Shown here: positions 18,995 through 28,259 of the stretch, piece after piece
Layout of the letters: each line of letters opens with the position of its first letter
Numbering within the stretch: position 1 is the first letter of the stretch
Origin: an uncultured Bacteroidia bacterium
Lineage (GTDB): Bacteria > Bacteroidota > Bacteroidia > Bacteroidales > UBA932
Length of the DNA stretch: 45,625 nt
Direction: 5' to 3'
Assembly (NCBI GenBank): GCA_902774155.1
Contig: CACYHF010000011.1
Location: forward strand, 1-45,625
Translations under genes and position numbers: made by a program
Notes under the pieces: generated by a model
The model's input: the letters and a program-made list of their open reading frames with translations, nothing else
The model's database searches: none
What the model was told of the DNA's origin: nothing

Positions 18995-19879
18995 TTGAAA
19001 AAACTGTCCCTGCTGCTAATCCTGTTGGCATGTACGTCCTGCGGAGTCTTCCGATTCCGCTCTTCGGAACGTTACCTGCCAGGGCCTGCCATTCGGGATT
19101 ATGTACCCAATGGGATTGTGGAGGAAGTGATGTATCCCTCCAGTGTTCCGGGACCCACCGCAAGAAGGATGATCGTGTACCTCCCGGCCGATTATTATCA
19201 GAGCCAGGAGCGATACCCGGTCATCTATCTTTTGCACGGCGCGCGCGGGTATGAAACCGCCTGGATCCGTTTCGGGGAAGTGTACGAAAGCACGGACAGC
19301 CTGACCCGAGAAGGCAAAGCCGCGCCCTGCATCGTGGTGATGCCCAACGTAAACCAGTACAACGACGACAAAGACTACGAAGGCGGCCGCTTCAAAGATG
19401 CCTGGGAGTCCATCTGGGAGGTGGACGGCGTGGTGGAATCGGCCTTTGTGCACGATGTAGTGCAACTGGTAGACAGCCTGTACCGCACCATTCCGGACAA
19501 GGCGCACCGGGCCCTCGCCGGCCTTTCCGTGGGAGGATACCAAAGCATCTGGATCAGTGCCAACCATCCGGATACCTTTGGATACGTGGCCGCTTTCTCG
19601 CCTTATATGTGGTGCCTGGGCAAGTCCAACCCCTATAAAAAGCAGTTCTATTCCAACCTGTACCCGAAACTGGCGGTTCAGTTTGCCAGTTCCGTGGAGG
19701 GCTACTATCTCTATGCCGGTGAACAGGACATTATGCTCCCCTCTACCGAAGATTTCCACAACAAACTGAACAAAAGAGGATACCTGCACCATTTCTTCCT
19801 CTTCCCTGGTAAACACGACTGGCCGGACGGCTGGATAGAGGAGTATCAGGATATGTTGCAGCGAGTATTCAAAAACTAG
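18995..19879 (+). CDS. Esterase D/feruloyl-esterase-like alpha/beta hydrolase, lipoprotein
   Basis: This 294-residue enzyme starts with a lipoprotein signal (MKKLSLLLILLACTSC) read from a TTG codon at 18995; no ATG lies in reach that would keep the signal. The body shows the esterase pattern: YPVIYLLHGARG (oxyanion hole), GLSVGGYQS with the nucleophile Ser, and a C-terminal FFLFPGKHDWPDGW with the catalytic His. The family splits acyl esters, including ferulic or acetyl groups on plant polysaccharides. Substrate is not visible. It follows yebC by 9 bp. Confidence 0.8.
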   Translation: MKKLSLLLILLACTSCGVFRFRSSERYLPGPAIRDYVPNGIVEEVMYPSSVPGPTARRMIVYLPADYYQSQERYPVIYLLHGARGYETAWIRFGEVYESTDSLTREGKAAPCIVVMPNVNQYNDDKDYEGGRFKDAWESIWEVDGVVESAFVHDVVQLVDSLYRTIPDKAHRALAGLSVGGYQSIWISANHPDTFGYVAAFSPYMWCLGKSNPYKKQFYSNLYPKLAVQFASSVEGYYLYAGEQDIMLPSTEDFHNKLNKRGYLHHFFLFPGKHDWPDGWIEEYQDMLQRVFKN

Positions 19880-19920: not shown

Positions 19921-20781
19921 ATGCAACATGTACAATCCTACCAGGTCGCCGGCCTGCGTTTCACCATTGAAGGAGATTTCCCCGTTCTTCAGAACCTGGA
20001 ACCCTTCTGTTCGGAACAGGGAGAAGATATTTTCCGCCTGCAAGTAGTTTCCAGCCTGCTGCCGCTTCCCACCACGCCCGTTTACCGGACGGAAGACGGC
20101 CCCGGATTCCCGGAAATCTCCATCGATGCCCTCCCGGACGGCGGATACCGTTTCCGCATGCGTCCCCTGCCCGGAAAGCCCCTGGAGGCCGAACTTCGCA
20201 CCAATACAAGCTTTTCCCAGGCCCAGTTGATGTTCCTGGGCAAAGACCACAGCTTTGCCCTGAACAACTCCCTCATGCTGCTGTACACCTTTGCATCGGC
20301 CGTACACGGTGCCCTGGAAATGCATTCCTCCGTGGTGATGAATGATGGGAAAGGGTACCTTTTCCTAGGCAAGAGCGGTACCGGAAAAAGTACGCACAGC
20401 AGCCTATGGCTCAAGCATATCCCCGGCACGGAACTCCTCAACGACGACAACCCCATCCTACGCCTGATGCCGGACGGATCGGCGCGGGTGTTCGGCTCCC
20501 CCTGGAGCGGAAAAACCCCTTGTTACAAGAACCAGGACGTGCCGGCGGGCGCCGTAGTACGCATCCGCCAGGCCCCGTTCAACCAGATAGAAAAGCTTCC
20601 CGCCGTGCAGGCCTATGCCTCCCTGATGGCATCGGCCTCCAGTTTCCGGCCTTTCCGCGAACTGGCCGAAGGCTGGCACCGCACGCTGGAAGGACTGGTG
20701 GCCGTACTCCCCTGCTATGTGCTGGACTGCCTGCCGGACCAGGCAGCGGCAGAACTCTGTTACAAAACCGTTCATGGATAA
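19921..20781 (+). CDS. HprK/PEPCK-like P-loop kinase of the PqqD cassette
   Basis: The 286-residue protein has an N-terminal beta-rich part (about 1-120) and a kinase core with the P-loop GKSGTGKST at 150-158, then LLNDDNPILR and GSPWSGKTPCYKN. This is the fold of HPr kinase and ATP-type PEP carboxykinase. Relatives occur next to PqqD-type genes in RiPP clusters such as some lasso peptide loci, where they phosphorylate the precursor. The ATG at 19921 was chosen because the upstream extension would run into the -7 element. Its end overlaps the next gene by 8 bp. The substrate is unknown; a modified peptide is inferred, carbon control via HPr is unlikely here. Confidence 0.75.
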   Translation: MQHVQSYQVAGLRFTIEGDFPVLQNLEPFCSEQGEDIFRLQVVSSLLPLPTTPVYRTEDGPGFPEISIDALPDGGYRFRMRPLPGKPLEAELRTNTSFSQAQLMFLGKDHSFALNNSLMLLYTFASAVHGALEMHSSVVMNDGKGYLFLGKSGTGKSTHSSLWLKHIPGTELLNDDNPILRLMPDGSARVFGSPWSGKTPCYKNQDVPAGAVVRIRQAPFNQIEKLPAVQAYASLMASASSFRPFRELAEGWHRTLEGLVAVLPCYVLDCLPDQAAAELCYKTVHG

Positions 20782-21196
20782 ACGCATCGTCACCAACGAA
20801 GTGCTGCTGGAAGAAGCCGCAGCCCTCATGAATGAAGGACGCGAAGTGAGCTTCACGCCCCTGGGCAACAGCATGCTCCCCTTCATCCGTGGCGGAAAAG
20901 ACGCCGTGCGCATGCGCAAACTGCCCCGGGTAGAAGTGGGAGATATCATCCTCATCCGCCTTCCGGGCCGATATGTCCTTCACCGCGTCATCGCGCTGGA
21001 CGGCAACCAAGTCACGCTTATGGGAGACGGGAATATCACCGGCACGGAACAGTGCACCCTGGACGATGTCCTGGGCACGGTGGTGGCCATCGAGAAGGAT
21101 GGCAAAACCGTTATTCCGGGCAAGGGACGGTTCTGGTACAAGATTAAACCTTTAAGAAGATACATTTTAGCCATTTACAGGAGATTACCCATATGA
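20774..21196 (+). CDS. Small S24/S26-family peptidase, Sec11-like
   Basis: The 140-residue product shows TPLGNSMLPFI with candidate nucleophile Ser33, GDIILIR, VLHRVIALDG with His70 where bacterial leader peptidases have Lys, and LMGDGN with Asp85. A Ser-His-Asp set at these places is the pattern of the S26B (Sec11/archaeal) branch. No N-terminal membrane anchor is present; a basic amphipathic C-terminus (YKIKPLRRYILAIYRRLPI) may touch the membrane. It lies between the kinase and PqqD genes, overlapping both (8 and 4 bp), so a role as processing enzyme for the cassette's peptide is likely but inferred. The start overlaps the kinase's end; an upstream extension to 20717 would read through kinase sequence. 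Confidence 0.75.
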   Translation: MDKRIVTNEVLLEEAAALMNEGREVSFTPLGNSMLPFIRGGKDAVRMRKLPRVEVGDIILIRLPGRYVLHRVIALDGNQVTLMGDGNITGTEQCTLDDVLGTVVAIEKDGKTVIPGKGRFWYKIKPLRRYILAIYRRLPI

Positions 21197-21462
21197 AAAT
21201 CAAAGAAGGATTCATTCTGCGCACCATCTGCGGTGAACACGTTATAGTGGGCGAAGGCCTCACCCAGGTCAATTTTAACAAGATGCTCTCCCTCAACGAG
21301 AGCGCCGCTTATCTCTGGAAACAAGTCCAGGGCAAGGAATTCAGCAAAGAAGACATGGTGCAGTTCCTGCTGGACCAATACGAGGTTTCTCCGGAGCAAG
21401 CCGCCGCCGATGTAGACAAGCTCCTGGCCATCTGGATGAATGAAGGTGTGGTAGTGGAATGA
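21193..21462 (+). CDS. PqqD-family peptide-binding protein (stand-alone RRE)
   Basis: The 89-residue protein is a complete PqqD domain: a beta hairpin (KIKEGFILRTICGEHVIV), NKMLSLNESAAYLWKQVQG, KEDMVQFLLDQYEVSPEQAAADVDKLLAIWMNEGVV. Proteins of this fold bind the leader of a RiPP precursor and hand it to modifying enzymes. It overlaps the S26 peptidase and ABC genes by 4 bp on each side. No radical SAM enzyme, transglutaminase-like or asparagine-synthetase-like partner is next to it, so the matching enzymes are the kinase and peptidase, or lie elsewhere. Confidence 0.85.
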   Translation: MKIKEGFILRTICGEHVIVGEGLTQVNFNKMLSLNESAAYLWKQVQGKEFSKEDMVQFLLDQYEVSPEQAAADVDKLLAIWMNEGVVVE

Positions 21463-23081
21463 AAAGCCTGAAAGCATGCGCACAAACGGTCTGGACGCTC
21501 TCGCGTCCCGTCCGCTGGCGGGTGGCCATCACCCTGGCCACAGGCCTGGTGCGCATTGCCGTATCGCTTTCCTTCGTCTGGGCCAGCAAACACCTGGTGG
21601 ACATTGCCACCGGGGTGAGCACAGACTCCCTGGGCCGCGGAATCGGCCTGTTCCTGGGCATCCTGGCCGCCCAGCTGGCCACCATCGTTTTCATCAACTG
21701 GTGGGACGGCTACAACCAGGTAAAGACCCAGAACATCCTGCGTAAGAACCTGTTCGGGCACGTGCTCAGCAGCCGCTGGGACGGACGGGAACGCTTCCTC
21801 TCCGGAGATACGGTCAACCGCCTGGAAGAGGATATCCGCGTGGTGTCGGACCTTATCTGCGACCGCATCCCCGGCCTTATTATCACCAGCGTGCAGCTGC
21901 TGGCTGCCAGCGTGTACCTGCTCACCCTGGCTCCCAATCTGCTATGGGTGCTGGTCATCCTCATGGGTGCCGCCGTATTCGGCTCCAAGCTCTTCTTCCG
22001 CCAGATCCGGCAACTCATGGCCGCCATCCGCGCCCGCGAAAGTGAAATGCAGCAGCTCATGCAGGAAAGCCTGCAGCATCGTGTGCTGGTGCTCACCCTC
22101 ACCAACGTAGAGCGCGTGCTGGAAAAATTCGGCTGGTTACAGGCCGATGTAGAAGACAACACCCGCAAACGCCTGAATTACAATGCTGTTGCCCACGGCC
22201 TCATGTTCCTGGGTTTCCAGGCCGGCCATGCCACGGCTTTCCTATGGGGGGTTGTAGGCATCCTGCACGGAACCGTTACCTATGGTACCATGACGGCCTT
22301 CCTGCAGCTGGTGGGTCAGGTGCAGCGCCCCATTGCCGAATTCGGCCGCCAGATTCCGGCCATCATCACGGCCATCACCTCCATCGAGCGCCTGATGGAC
22401 CTGTTGGAACTGGAGCAGGAAAAACTGGAAGGCCCTGTTCTGCTGTCCGGTGCGCCGGAAATAACCCTCTCGCACGTAACCTACGCCTATCCCGAAGCCG
22501 AAGAAGCTGTTATCCAGGACTTCTCCTGCAGCTTCCCTTCCGGCAGCCTTACGGCCATCGCCGGCCCCACTGGCATCGGGAAAAGCACCCTCATCCGCCT
22601 GATTCTGGGGCTGTTGAAACCCACCCAGGGCAGCATTACCATCAACCAGGTGCCCGCCGGCAGCGCCCTGCGGGAGAACTTCATGTACATTCCGCAGGGA
22701 AATTCACTGCTCAGCGGCACCATCCGCACCAACCTGCAACTGGCAGCGCCGCAGGCCACCGAAGAGCAGATGAACCAAGCCCTGGAAACGGCCATGGCCC
22801 AGTTCGTCCACAAGCTTCCGCAAGGCCTGGACACGCCTTGCGGAGAAACCGGCAGCGGCCTCAGCGAAGGCCAGGCCCAGCGCATCGCCATCGCCCGGGC
22901 CCTCCTGCGTCCCGGCGGCGTGCTCATCCTGGACGAGAGCACATCGGCCCTGGATCCCCACACGGAAAAACAACTCTTACAGAACCTGCACGGCCGTTAT
23001 CACGGAGAAAAGACCATCCTGTTCATCTCCCACCGCGAAGCCGTCATCCAATACGCCGACCAAATTGTAAAACTGGATTAA
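21459..23081 (+). CDS. ABC exporter, fused permease and ATPase
   Basis: The 540-residue protein has an N-terminal six-helix type 1 exporter domain (about 15-310) and an ATPase with Walker A GPTGIGKST at 369-377, signature LSEGQ at 468-472 and Walker B VLILDEST at about 488. There is no C39 peptidase domain in front, so any leader must be removed by another enzyme, for which the S26-like peptidase is the obvious candidate. It overlaps the PqqD gene by 4 bp and therefore belongs to the cassette. Half-transporters of this kind work as homodimers in the inner membrane. Confidence 0.88.
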   Translation: MKSLKACAQTVWTLSRPVRWRVAITLATGLVRIAVSLSFVWASKHLVDIATGVSTDSLGRGIGLFLGILAAQLATIVFINWWDGYNQVKTQNILRKNLFGHVLSSRWDGRERFLSGDTVNRLEEDIRVVSDLICDRIPGLIITSVQLLAASVYLLTLAPNLLWVLVILMGAAVFGSKLFFRQIRQLMAAIRARESEMQQLMQESLQHRVLVLTLTNVERVLEKFGWLQADVEDNTRKRLNYNAVAHGLMFLGFQAGHATAFLWGVVGILHGTVTYGTMTAFLQLVGQVQRPIAEFGRQIPAIITAITSIERLMDLLELEQEKLEGPVLLSGAPEITLSHVTYAYPEAEEAVIQDFSCSFPSGSLTAIAGPTGIGKSTLIRLILGLLKPTQGSITINQVPAGSALRENFMYIPQGNSLLSGTIRTNLQLAAPQATEEQMNQALETAMAQFVHKLPQGLDTPCGETGSGLSEGQAQRIAIARALLRPGGVLILDESTSALDPHTEKQLLQNLHGRYHGEKTILFISHREAVIQYADQIVKLD

Positions 23082-23095
23082 ATACTATTAATACT

Positions 23096-24103
23096 ATGAA
23101 CCTCAAAGACAACAAGTACGCGCAATTCTATCTTTGCCGCGAAATGATGGACACCGTAGATGTAATCCGCAAGTTCAACCCGGAAACCGTCAACTTCATC
23201 GTGGAATCGGCCAAAAAGACCGGTCACATCCTATTCTCCGGCGAAGGTTCCAGCCGCATCATGCCAGCCAAGAACGCCATCCGCAAGGCCCTGCGCTGGG
23301 GCATCGATACCGTTACCCACACGGAAGGCTCCCACCAGGCCAGTGAGTACAAGCTGGACAAGTATACCGTCCTGCTGGACTCCAATTCCGGCCGTACCAA
23401 GGAAACCCTCATGCTGGCCAAGCAGTTGCAGGCCGCCGGTCACCAGGATTACTTCGGTGTAACCGCCAACGCCGGCACTCCTCTGGAGGAAGTGTGCAAG
23501 AAGACCGTTGTGCTGGGTTGTGGCTGGGAAAATGCCGTAGCCGCCACCAAGAGCGTAGTGGAACAGGCCCTGCTGTTTGAAACCGTGATCTGGAAACTCG
23601 CCGGCAAGGATATCGCCAAAGAGCTGAATGCCCTGGCCGATAAAGTGGAAAAGGCCCTCACCGTTGCCATTCCCCAAGAGGTGGTGGATTGGGTTCGCGG
23701 TGCCAAGACCATCTACTTCGCCGGCATGAACGACGGTGTAACGGAAGAGCTTACCCTCAAGACCAATGAGATCACCCGCCGCAAGAGCGACTTCCTGGAG
23801 GGCACCTACGCCCTGCACGGACCGGAAGAGGTCATGGAAGACGGCGATATCGTCTTCGTGGTCGAGCCCATACAGAGCGAGTACGAGAAATACCAGAAGG
23901 TCTTCGGCGGCGCCAACGTGCACGTGGTGGCCATCGACACCAAGCCCACGCCGTTCACCACCATCGTGGTTCCCGACGCCGGTGACCTCCAGGCCTATGT
24001 ATACCTGGCTGCCGGTTGGAACACCCTGGTAGAAATTGCCCAGGCCGATGGAATCAACCTGGACAAACCTAACCGTGCCCGCAAAGTAGGCAACGAGATG
24101 TAA
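23096..24103 (+). CDS. SIS-domain sugar isomerase-like protein
   Basis: The 335-residue protein has two SIS domains, related to the isomerase half of GlmS and to AgaS-type enzymes. The first contains TGHILFSGEGSSRIMPAKNA (about 42-60) and LLDSNSGRTKET with the phosphosugar-binding Ser/Thr loop; the second contains YFAGMNDGVTEELTLKTNEI and EGTYALHGPEEV. There is no glutaminase domain. It could interconvert ketose and aldose (amino)sugars or phosphosugars; the substrate is not visible. The ATG at 23096 follows the ABC gene by 14 bp and it is convergent with the rhamnosidase gene (1-bp gap). Membership in the cassette or in sugar use are both possible. Confidence 0.75.
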   Translation: MNLKDNKYAQFYLCREMMDTVDVIRKFNPETVNFIVESAKKTGHILFSGEGSSRIMPAKNAIRKALRWGIDTVTHTEGSHQASEYKLDKYTVLLDSNSGRTKETLMLAKQLQAAGHQDYFGVTANAGTPLEEVCKKTVVLGCGWENAVAATKSVVEQALLFETVIWKLAGKDIAKELNALADKVEKALTVAIPQEVVDWVRGAKTIYFAGMNDGVTEELTLKTNEITRRKSDFLEGTYALHGPEEVMEDGDIVFVVEPIQSEYEKYQKVFGGANVHVVAIDTKPTPFTTIVVPDAGDLQAYVYLAAGWNTLVEIAQADGINLDKPNRARKVGNEM

Positions 24104-26561: not shown

Positions 26562-28259
26562 ATGAAAAAACTATTAACCCTTCTTTCAGTTATCGCTCTG
26601 TCGGCATCCCTTTCCGCGATGGCCGGCTCCCGGGGAGTCCCGGCCGTTTACAAGAACGGGCAGCTTACAGTTGACGGCAAACCTTTCACCCTGCTGGCGG
26701 GGGAACTCCACAATTCCACCACCGGCAGCGTGCCGTATATGCGGGACGTCTGGAAACAGATGGCCGATAAGAACCTCAACACCGTGATTGCCGCCGCCAG
26801 CTGGGAATTGGTGGAACCGGAGGAAGGCAAGTTCAACTTCCGGGAAGTGGATGCGATGATTGACGGTGCCCGGGATGCCGGCCTGAGGTTGGTGGTCCTG
26901 TGGTTCGGCAGCTGGAAGAACGGAGATTCCTCCTATACCCCGTCCTGGGTAAAACTGGACCAGAAGCGTTTCCCGCGGGCCCACTTCCAGGACGGACAGC
27001 CTACGCAGGCCCTTTCTCCCCTGGGGAAAGAAAGTCAGAAGGCCGATGCCCGCGCCTTTGCCGCCCTCCTGGCCCACATCCGGGACTACGACCAGGCAGG
27101 GACCGTGATTATGGTGCAGGTAGAGAATGAACTGGGCTCCGTGGATGTATTGTCCACCTTTACCGGAACGCCCAACCGGGGGATGCGGGATTATTCCCCT
27201 GCCGCCGACAAAGCCTTCAAGGGAGCTGTCCCCAAAGCCCTTATCACCTATCTCAAAAAGCATAAAGGAGCCCTGCATCCGGCCGTTGAAGCGGCCTGGA
27301 AACGCAGCGGTTACCGGACTTCCGGCAGCTGGGAAGAAGTGTTCGGTACCGGAACGCTTACCCTGAAGGAGGGCTCCTGGCAGGATACGTATCCCTATCT
27401 CACGGAAGAGCTCTTCAACACCTGGCAGTACGCCTTGTATGTAGAAGCCGTTGCATCGGCCGGAAAAAAGGAGTATCCCCTGCCCATGTACGTGAATGCC
27501 TGGCAAAAGACGGAAGGCCAGTGCGTGCCCGGCAATTATCCTTGCGGCGGTCCCCTGCCGCACGTGTCCGACATCTGGAAAGCAGCCGCTCCGTCCATCG
27601 ATTTCCTGTCTCCGGACATCTATGCTACAAACGTTTACGACTGGATTTGCGACGGATACACGCAGGCCGGTTATCCCCTCTTCATCCCGGAAACCACCTC
27701 CTCTCCGGACGGTGCCTCCCGCGCTTTCTACACCTTCGGGAAATACGGGGCCGCCTGCTATGCACCTTTCGGTATAGACAGCGCCAAGGGCTTTTCCTAT
27801 GACATCACCTACGCCCTTCTGGGCCGATACCTGGACGAAATCCAGGGCGGCAAAACCGCCGGGCTGCTCATCGATCCCCCGGCCGGCCGGACTATGGACC
27901 AGGCCGAACTGGGCGGCTATCGCTTCATCCTGATTCCCAACAATACGGAGCTGTTCACCGCCCTGACCGGCGCATCGGCCGATGCGGAGGAAGCTGCCTT
28001 AACGCCTGTTTCGGGCGTTCTTATCCTCCAGCGCTCCGCAGAGGAATTCCTGATACTGGGAGGCGTGGGCCCCGCCACGCTGTCGGTCACTTCCACCAGC
28101 GGAAAGAACGCCGCTGTCCTATCGGTGGATGAAATCCGCCAGAACACCGACGGCAGCGAGTACCTCCACCGCCTGAACGGTGACGAAACCTCTATGGGCA
28201 TCACCTCCTTCGCCCCCGGTCAGGTAAAAGCCCTCCGGGTTAGGTTGTATCAGTATTAG
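26562..28259 (+). CDS. GH35-like (DUF5597-type) glycoside hydrolase, secreted
   Basis: The 565-residue protein has a signal peptide (MKKLLTLLSVIALSASLSAMA) and a TIM barrel of the GH35/GH42-like clan. LLAGELHNSTTGSVPYMRDVW begins it, NTVIAAASWELVEPEEGKFNF is the second conserved block, VQVENELGS carries the probable acid/base Glu, and LFIPETTSS the probable nucleophile Glu. A C-terminal beta domain (about 440-565) is typical of DUF5597-containing relatives. Likely activity is beta-galactosidase or a similar exo-glycosidase acting on plant side chains. It is divergent from the GH78 gene and probably works on the same polymer. Confidence 0.75.
   Translation: MKKLLTLLSVIALSASLSAMAGSRGVPAVYKNGQLTVDGKPFTLLAGELHNSTTGSVPYMRDVWKQMADKNLNTVIAAASWELVEPEEGKFNFREVDAMIDGARDAGLRLVVLWFGSWKNGDSSYTPSWVKLDQKRFPRAHFQDGQPTQALSPLGKESQKADARAFAALLAHIRDYDQAGTVIMVQVENELGSVDVLSTFTGTPNRGMRDYSPAADKAFKGAVPKALITYLKKHKGALHPAVEAAWKRSGYRTSGSWEEVFGTGTLTLKEGSWQDTYPYLTEELFNTWQYALYVEAVASAGKKEYPLPMYVNAWQKTEGQCVPGNYPCGGPLPHVSDIWKAAAPSIDFLSPDIYATNVYDWICDGYTQAGYPLFIPETTSSPDGASRAFYTFGKYGAACYAPFGIDSAKGFSYDITYALLGRYLDEIQGGKTAGLLIDPPAGRTMDQAELGGYRFILIPNNTELFTALTGASADAEEAALTPVSGVLILQRSAEEFLILGGVGPATLSVTSTSGKNAAVLSVDEIRQNTDGSEYLHRLNGDETSMGITSFAPGQVKALRVRLYQY

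Follow-up and report, generated by a model that had tools for sequence, protein, structure and literature searches.

The window analysed here is a stretch of 45,625 nucleotides on contig CACYHF010000011.1 (assembly GCA_902774155.1) of an uncultured member of the Bacteroidales, and it holds a cassette of four overlapping genes encoding a kinase-fold protein, a small peptidase, a PqqD-type protein and an ABC exporter. Our data suggest that these genes are likely the enzyme-and-export module of a pathway for ribosomally synthesized and post-translationally modified peptides (RiPPs), one that resembles the linear polyphosphorylated peptide (LPP) systems and acts in trans on precursors encoded elsewhere in the genome. 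The host draft genome comprises 2,428,135 bases in 88 contigs (completeness 92.2%, contamination 3.6%). The four genes, with the evidence for each assignment, are:

19921-20781, + strand: HprK/PEPCK-fold kinase (LppK-like), 286 aa (AlphaFold2 model with Foldseek; conserved residues)
20774-21196, + strand: small S24/S26-type Ser-His peptidase (LppS-like), 140 aa (AlphaFold2 model with Foldseek; conserved residues)
21193-21462, + strand: stand-alone PqqD-type RiPP recognition element (RRE; LppB/lasso-B1-like), 89 aa (Pfam; profile search)
21459-23081, + strand: MsbA-type half transporter, an ABC exporter without C39 peptidase (LppD-like), 540 aa (Pfam)

LPPs were described in May 2026 (Popov et al., PMC13381572). 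The LPP gene set encodes a signal-peptidase-like protein (LppS), a discrete RRE (LppB), an HprK-like kinase (LppK), a nucleoside triphosphate (NTP) transferase (LppN) and an MsbA-like exporter (LppD), and the order of binding, phosphorylation, trimming and export was shown for it in Paenibacillus alginolyticus. The precursors (lppA) carry the sequence YxxPxVLxHQxIxFETxxS; LppK adds several phosphates to Ser3 of the core, which is Tyr+18 by the published motif, and LppS removes the leader with the assistance of LppB (PMC13381572). The cassette in the window has an HprK-like kinase, a discrete RRE of the Tyr-leader type, a leader peptidase candidate of signal-peptidase type with Ser, His and Asp, and an MsbA-like exporter, and it is accompanied, in trans, by short precursor candidates that have YxxP in the leader and a Ser close to Tyr+18. 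The two systems differ in their hosts, which are Bacillota for the LPPs and Bacteroidales plus a few Fibrobacter-labelled contigs of metagenome-assembled genomes (MAGs) here. They differ also in that our precursors lie mostly far from the cassette, several to a genome, and often precede a gene for a fimbrillin-like lipoprotein. Since the full leader consensus is missing from our peptides and no NTP transferase was found in the host draft genome, we call the system LPP-like and do not place it in the published LPP clade.

The kinase was recognized mainly by its fold. Pfam gave PEPCK_ATP alone, a weak match (23.2 bits) under the curated cut-off, and single-sequence PDB searches with the kinase and the peptidase found no useful match. 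The AlphaFold2 model of the kinase is confident (pLDDT, the predicted local distance difference test, of 94), and Foldseek places it closest to PEPCK, with HPr kinase 1knx also matched (E=9.6e-5); a kinase profile run against the PDB returned P-loop and PEPCK matches only. The protein has a P-loop, GKSGTGKST, with K156, and an NDD motif with D175/D176. Among the 133 unique sequences of the fetched loci, 132 keep K156 and D176 and the other row is a gap; this and the other residue counts exclude rows scoring <=25 bits or >=700 aa. A GKTPCY motif with Cys201 (residues W195-Y202, in the region 20490-20530) is kept in the close group and in 111/133 sequences overall, and is gapped or absent in nearly all kinases of the distant group. 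HprK-related kinases with PqqD-family partners also occur in the SCM and HPr-rel-A RiPP-like cassettes (TIGR04249/TIGR04248 and TIGR04352), but our proteins fall far below those cut-offs (kinase, 22 bits against 125 and 20.6 against 200; PqqD, 20.2 against 100).

The peptidase gave similarly weak Pfam matches, to S24 (20.1 bits) and S26 (17.3 bits), both under the curated cut-offs. Its AlphaFold2 model (pLDDT 82) matches LexA-type S24 and signal-peptidase folds in Foldseek, and S33, H70 and D85 are kept in all 114 unique sequences; D85 is the probable counterpart of D93 in LppS. The exporter scores over the Pfam cut-offs for ABC_membrane and ABC_tran and has no C39 domain, and its best NCBIfam matches include MsbA models, under their own cut-offs. 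Three relatives carry the peptidase fused to the N-terminus of the exporter, with Peptidase_S24 over the cut-off in each:

L117:9907-12168, + strand: S24/S26 peptidase-ABC exporter fusion (Pfam)
L118:7095-9377, - strand: S24/S26 peptidase-ABC exporter fusion (Pfam)
L122:10187-12424, + strand: S24/S26 peptidase-ABC exporter fusion (Pfam)

These fusions amount to a peptidase-containing transporter in which a serine peptidase stands where C39 would sit.

The PqqD gene is the only one over the cut-off in the host genome, and it matches PF05402 with 61 bits across all 67 model positions. A profile of the family run against the PDB found the lasso B1 proteins TfuB1 (6jx3, E=2.9e-7), PbaB1 (E=0.2) and TbiB1 (E=0.3); a 'conserved hypothetical protein', 2fb0, also matched weakly (E=0.51). 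D73 is kept in 118/118 unique sequences and N35 in 117/118. Aligned with PbaB1, N35 falls on the column of Gly42 and D73 on that of Gln79 (tag offset 18), and the G42N/Q79D change in PbaB1 strengthens binding of a Tyr leader (PMC13381572). N35 and D73 are thus the residue pair expected of a YxxP binder and are predicted to contact the leader.

These assignments bear out what a first-pass annotation had read from the same DNA. It had listed an HprK/PEPCK-like P-loop protein, a small S26-type peptidase, a complete stand-alone PqqD and an exporter without C39, and had described genes overlapping by 8, 4 and 4 bp. Recomputed coordinates give the same overlaps (kinase/peptidase 8 bp, peptidase/PqqD 4 bp, PqqD/exporter 4 bp, all on the + strand), and the folds and domain matches above agree with each of the four descriptions.

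The B1-like PqqD and the YxxP leaders are also features of lasso peptide pathways, so we asked whether the cassette could serve such a pathway, with the genes for the B2 protease and the macrolactam synthetase at other sites in the genome. Phosphorylated lasso peptides of the paeninodin type share with our system a PadeK-like kinase, a discrete B1 RRE, a YxxP or WxxP leader, an exporter and sometimes an NTP transferase. They differ in having the macrolactam synthetase and B2 protease that the cassette here lacks: its peptidase belongs to another class, it contains no AsnB-like synthetase (a genome-wide synthetase search was not made), and PF13471, the B2 family, has no match at E<=0.01 in the host genome. 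Among 80 cassette-positive genomes, 21 gave a PF13471 match at E<=0.01 and six a protein over the cut-off, but none of the six is beside the cassette; they are on other contigs or, in one genome (G592), ~369 kb away. We consider a lasso product extremely improbable.

An LPP-like pathway would need precursor peptides, and the first-pass annotation had found no precursor gene next to the cassette. We found none there either: the short open reading frames (ORFs) adjoining the cassette were tried and none fits the pattern, and a scan of the window with a K-K-x-Y-x-x-P DNA pattern gave a sole match, at 27465, within a large ORF (26562-28259). In relatives, small ORFs beside the cassette share a K-rich start, YxxP, a hydrophobic stretch, Ser/Thr and an acidic tail, and in eight distant loci (L109, L111, L113, L114, L115, L120, L123 and L125) a YxxP ORF is found between PqqD and the kinase or next to them. 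The regular-expression listings of small ORFs were full of antisense noise, and the YxxP family was chosen by eye and tested with profiles afterwards. In 55 peptides gathered by hand from profile and regular-expression matches, the span Tyr+18 to +21 contains a Ser in 51, and every peptide has either Ser or Thr there; among four-residue windows clear of that span, none has a Ser in more than 24/55. A Pfam/NCBIfam scan of eight peptides assigned no family (best, lasso_cyano, E=0.077).

Profiles A4 and A7, built without host-genome sequences, identified two candidate precursors in the host:

Contig C44:16441-16557 (L228:9442-9558), + strand: candidate precursor 1, MRQKELYEAPETEVLELRLEGVIAMSNFSNGEGMDDDD (A4 E=1.1e-4, A7 E=2.7e-8)
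Contig C5:44561-44716 (L229:9562-9717), - strand: candidate precursor 2, MEANNDRMDSEKKKVIYESPEALVYTFVVESGVLNNTSPGTEMGNGGFLDE (A7 E=0.014)

Candidate precursor 2 is weak on its E-value alone, yet the complete pattern is present. A later profile, A8, includes both host ORFs.

Precursor matches and the cassette occur in the same genomes. In a family sample of 199 genomes, A4 at E<=0.1 matched 72 and PqqD was found in 82; 67 genomes had both, 5 the precursor only, 15 PqqD only and 112 neither (Fisher p=8e-32). Within the host's genus in this sample, 13/15 PqqD-positive genomes gave a precursor match and 0/4 listed PqqD-negative ones did; the host genome itself gave none in this run. In an order sample, scored at E<=1e-3 against the kinase, 42 genomes had both, 9 a precursor match without the kinase, 13 the kinase without a precursor match and 329 neither (p=5e-36), and removing the ten genomes that supplied precursor rows left 32/9/13/329 (p=4e-28); the p-values of both samples are inflated because the genomes share ancestry. 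In a wider genus sample, A8 at E<=0.01 matched 119 of 151 genomes, with up to 23 matches per genome. Among 134 listed family matches (E<=1e-3, 57 genomes), 27 in 22 genomes lie <=10 kb from PqqD, where ~1 would be expected by chance (estimated as 20 kb in 2.2 Mb), and 107 lie >10 kb away. Precursors are therefore enriched near the cassette, yet most are encoded elsewhere.

This association also bears on a role in sugar or HPr phosphorylation, in which the cassette would belong to polysaccharide or phosphate metabolism and the YxxP ORFs would be incidental. Such a role would fit five loci (L076, L077, L082, L096 and L143) in which the cassette genes lie, by eye, amid apparent glycosyltransferase and Wza/Wzc-like genes, a setting like the one reported as frequent for the LPPs of Bacilli (PMC13381572). 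The locus in the window is not a polysaccharide locus. A PqqD-type RRE with the predicted YxxP-contact residues throughout the aligned sequences, and a precursor profile that tracks the cassette in both the family and order samples, point instead to peptides. We regard a sugar or HPr substrate as very unlikely.

The cassette genes stay together across relatives. The kinase profile matches 8/395 phylum genomes and 55/393 order genomes, and the nearest public kinase relatives come from MAGs titled Bacteroidales, many of them from rumen samples. Counted by hand, 34 of 53 genome-contig loci have the order kinase-peptidase-PqqD-ABC; 27 of these 34 carry a kinase at least 59% identical and are close kin, so they are not independent. 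Other loci keep the genes linked in a different order, and in 60 further stretches (up to 19.5 kb) they are likewise linked, in varying order. In the window, an esterase-type gene ends at 19879, 41 bp before the cassette, and a SIS-domain gene starts at 23096, 14 bp after it. We looked for a constant partner gene near the 53 loci and rejected the idea, as the shared neighbours are housekeeping synteny (recF, DUF721, YebC-like and others). Four loci (L061, L067, L071 and L072) are on MAG contigs labelled Fibrobacter, for which transfer and mis-binning are both possible; L061 has one precursor ORF and L067 two.

Some relatives add an NTP transferase, which we found in 11/53 loci and 7/30 short loci and confirmed as PF14907 in three. 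In four loci (L064:7926-9904, L065:7965-9946, L069:7959-9946 and L086:8959-10940) the kinase and NTP transferase genes overlap, with no PqqD or peptidase detected nearby. The added enzyme raises the alternative that the peptides are substrates but the kinase-fold enzyme leaves no stable Ser phosphate, making for instance an activated intermediate on which another enzyme acts, so that phosphorylation would be a passing step. In the LPP and paeninodin systems of Bacilli, both the final products and the NTP-transferase reaction have yet to be established (PMC13381572), which gives the alternative some room. PF14907 has no match at E<=0.01 in the host draft genome (92% complete), and LppK, the experimental counterpart of our kinase, leaves phosphates on a single Ser (PMC13381572). 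An activated intermediate is in our judgement unlikely.

By analogy with the LPPs, then, the LPP-like pathway would run as follows. PqqD would bind the YxxP leader of short precursors whose genes lie at other places in the genome, and the HprK-fold kinase would phosphorylate a Ser located ~18-21 residues downstream of the Tyr. With the peptide presented by PqqD, the signal-peptidase-like enzyme may then cut off the leader near that Ser, and the ABC protein would export an acidic linear core. The first-pass annotation had proposed the same succession, of a peptide bound by PqqD, modified by the kinase, trimmed by the peptidase and exported; the LPP analogy, gene linkage, the peptidase-exporter fusions in three relatives, conserved residues and co-occurring precursors support it, short of proof. 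It had called for a genome survey of the four-gene order, had expected support from conserved short ORFs that share a leader, and had seen a threat to the peptide idea in genes not kept together in relatives. The survey found the genes linked, the order shared or rearranged, and ORFs of that kind occur next to the cassette in relatives and, in the host, in trans. Its statement that no precursor is adjacent holds, but the product class, which it left open, can now be put as LPP-like, with candidate precursors in trans.

Several observations weigh against this interpretation. The HQxIxFET part of the Bacillota consensus is absent, by eye, from the collected peptides, and we could not read a distinct leader cleavage site off the precursors. 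The missing PF14907 match in the host and the shared ancestry behind our statistics count on the same side. By profile matching, PqqD is nearest to TfuB1, an actinobacterial lasso B1 protein, and LppB (9x8z) did not appear among the 13 matches found at E<=10, although the presence of 9x8z in the searched set is unconfirmed. Finally, co-occurrence is incomplete in both directions: 15/82 PqqD-positive family genomes and 13/55 kinase-positive order genomes gave no precursor match, and five family and nine order genomes gave a precursor and no cassette match. As the host genome is among the 15 non-matching family genomes, the precursor search evidently misses some.

The genes downstream of the precursors offer a possible link to the cell surface. 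Both host precursors end ~13 to 18 bp upstream of a gene with a lipoprotein-like start; the neighbour of precursor 1 has no Pfam match, and that of precursor 2 has BspA-type leucine-rich repeats (LRRs). We took the best locus per genome, which gave 76 distinct precursors; L244 was discarded as a wrong pick, and an ORF follows downstream in 68. The ORF picker favoured Ser/Thr at Tyr+18 to +21. A lipobox-like motif is present in 52 of these 68 downstream ORFs, T[KR]...W..GD, which we take to be a motif of fimbrillin-like proteins, in 37, and both motifs in 33. The corresponding counts in 1201 genes of 98 cassette loci are 155, 24 and 6. Half-set profiles of the downstream N-termini recover 25/34 and 26/34 of the other half in two splits, and match 7/73 and 5/73 upstream neighbours; the upstream control is biased because its ORFs are defined between stop codons and frequently truncated, and the 1201 genes are the fairer background. 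An attempt to assign the downstream lipoproteins to a Pfam family failed in part, with Mfa_like_1 in 8/68 and in 0/4 of those first checked. Their C-terminal parts vary (LRR, Fib_succ_major, GH20 and others in Pfam), and in 4/68 the gene after the precursor is the kinase itself, read from PEPCK_ATP and Hpr_kinase_C matches.

We raise, tentatively, the possibility that one modification and export cassette serves many dispersed two-gene modules, in each of which a YxxP peptide gene stands ahead of one for a fimbrillin-like surface lipoprotein. After export, the phosphopeptide might serve this neighbouring surface protein, as a decoration on it, a partner that assembles with it or a signal of its state, and the RiPP pathway might thus maintain the variable cell surface of the Bacteroidales. 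The pairing with lipoproteins is a first lead on the role of the peptides, which the LPP paper leaves open (PMC13381572).

According to the discussion of the LPP paper, LPPs are restricted to Bacillota, with SpI homologues from other phyla mentioned as a minority (PMC13381572). A word search of that paper's text for 'bacteroid' and 'bacteroidota' returned nothing, and our literature search, whose coverage left out most subscription journals, found no paper on a Bacteroidota version. The cassette described here would carry a RiPP type described as limited to Bacillota into the Bacteroidales, a dominant order of the gut and rumen, and the candidate precursors are substrates on which this can be tested. 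If true, one enzyme set with its substrates scattered over the genome would be an unusual layout for a RiPP pathway, and one that would escape searches expecting the precursor inside the cluster.

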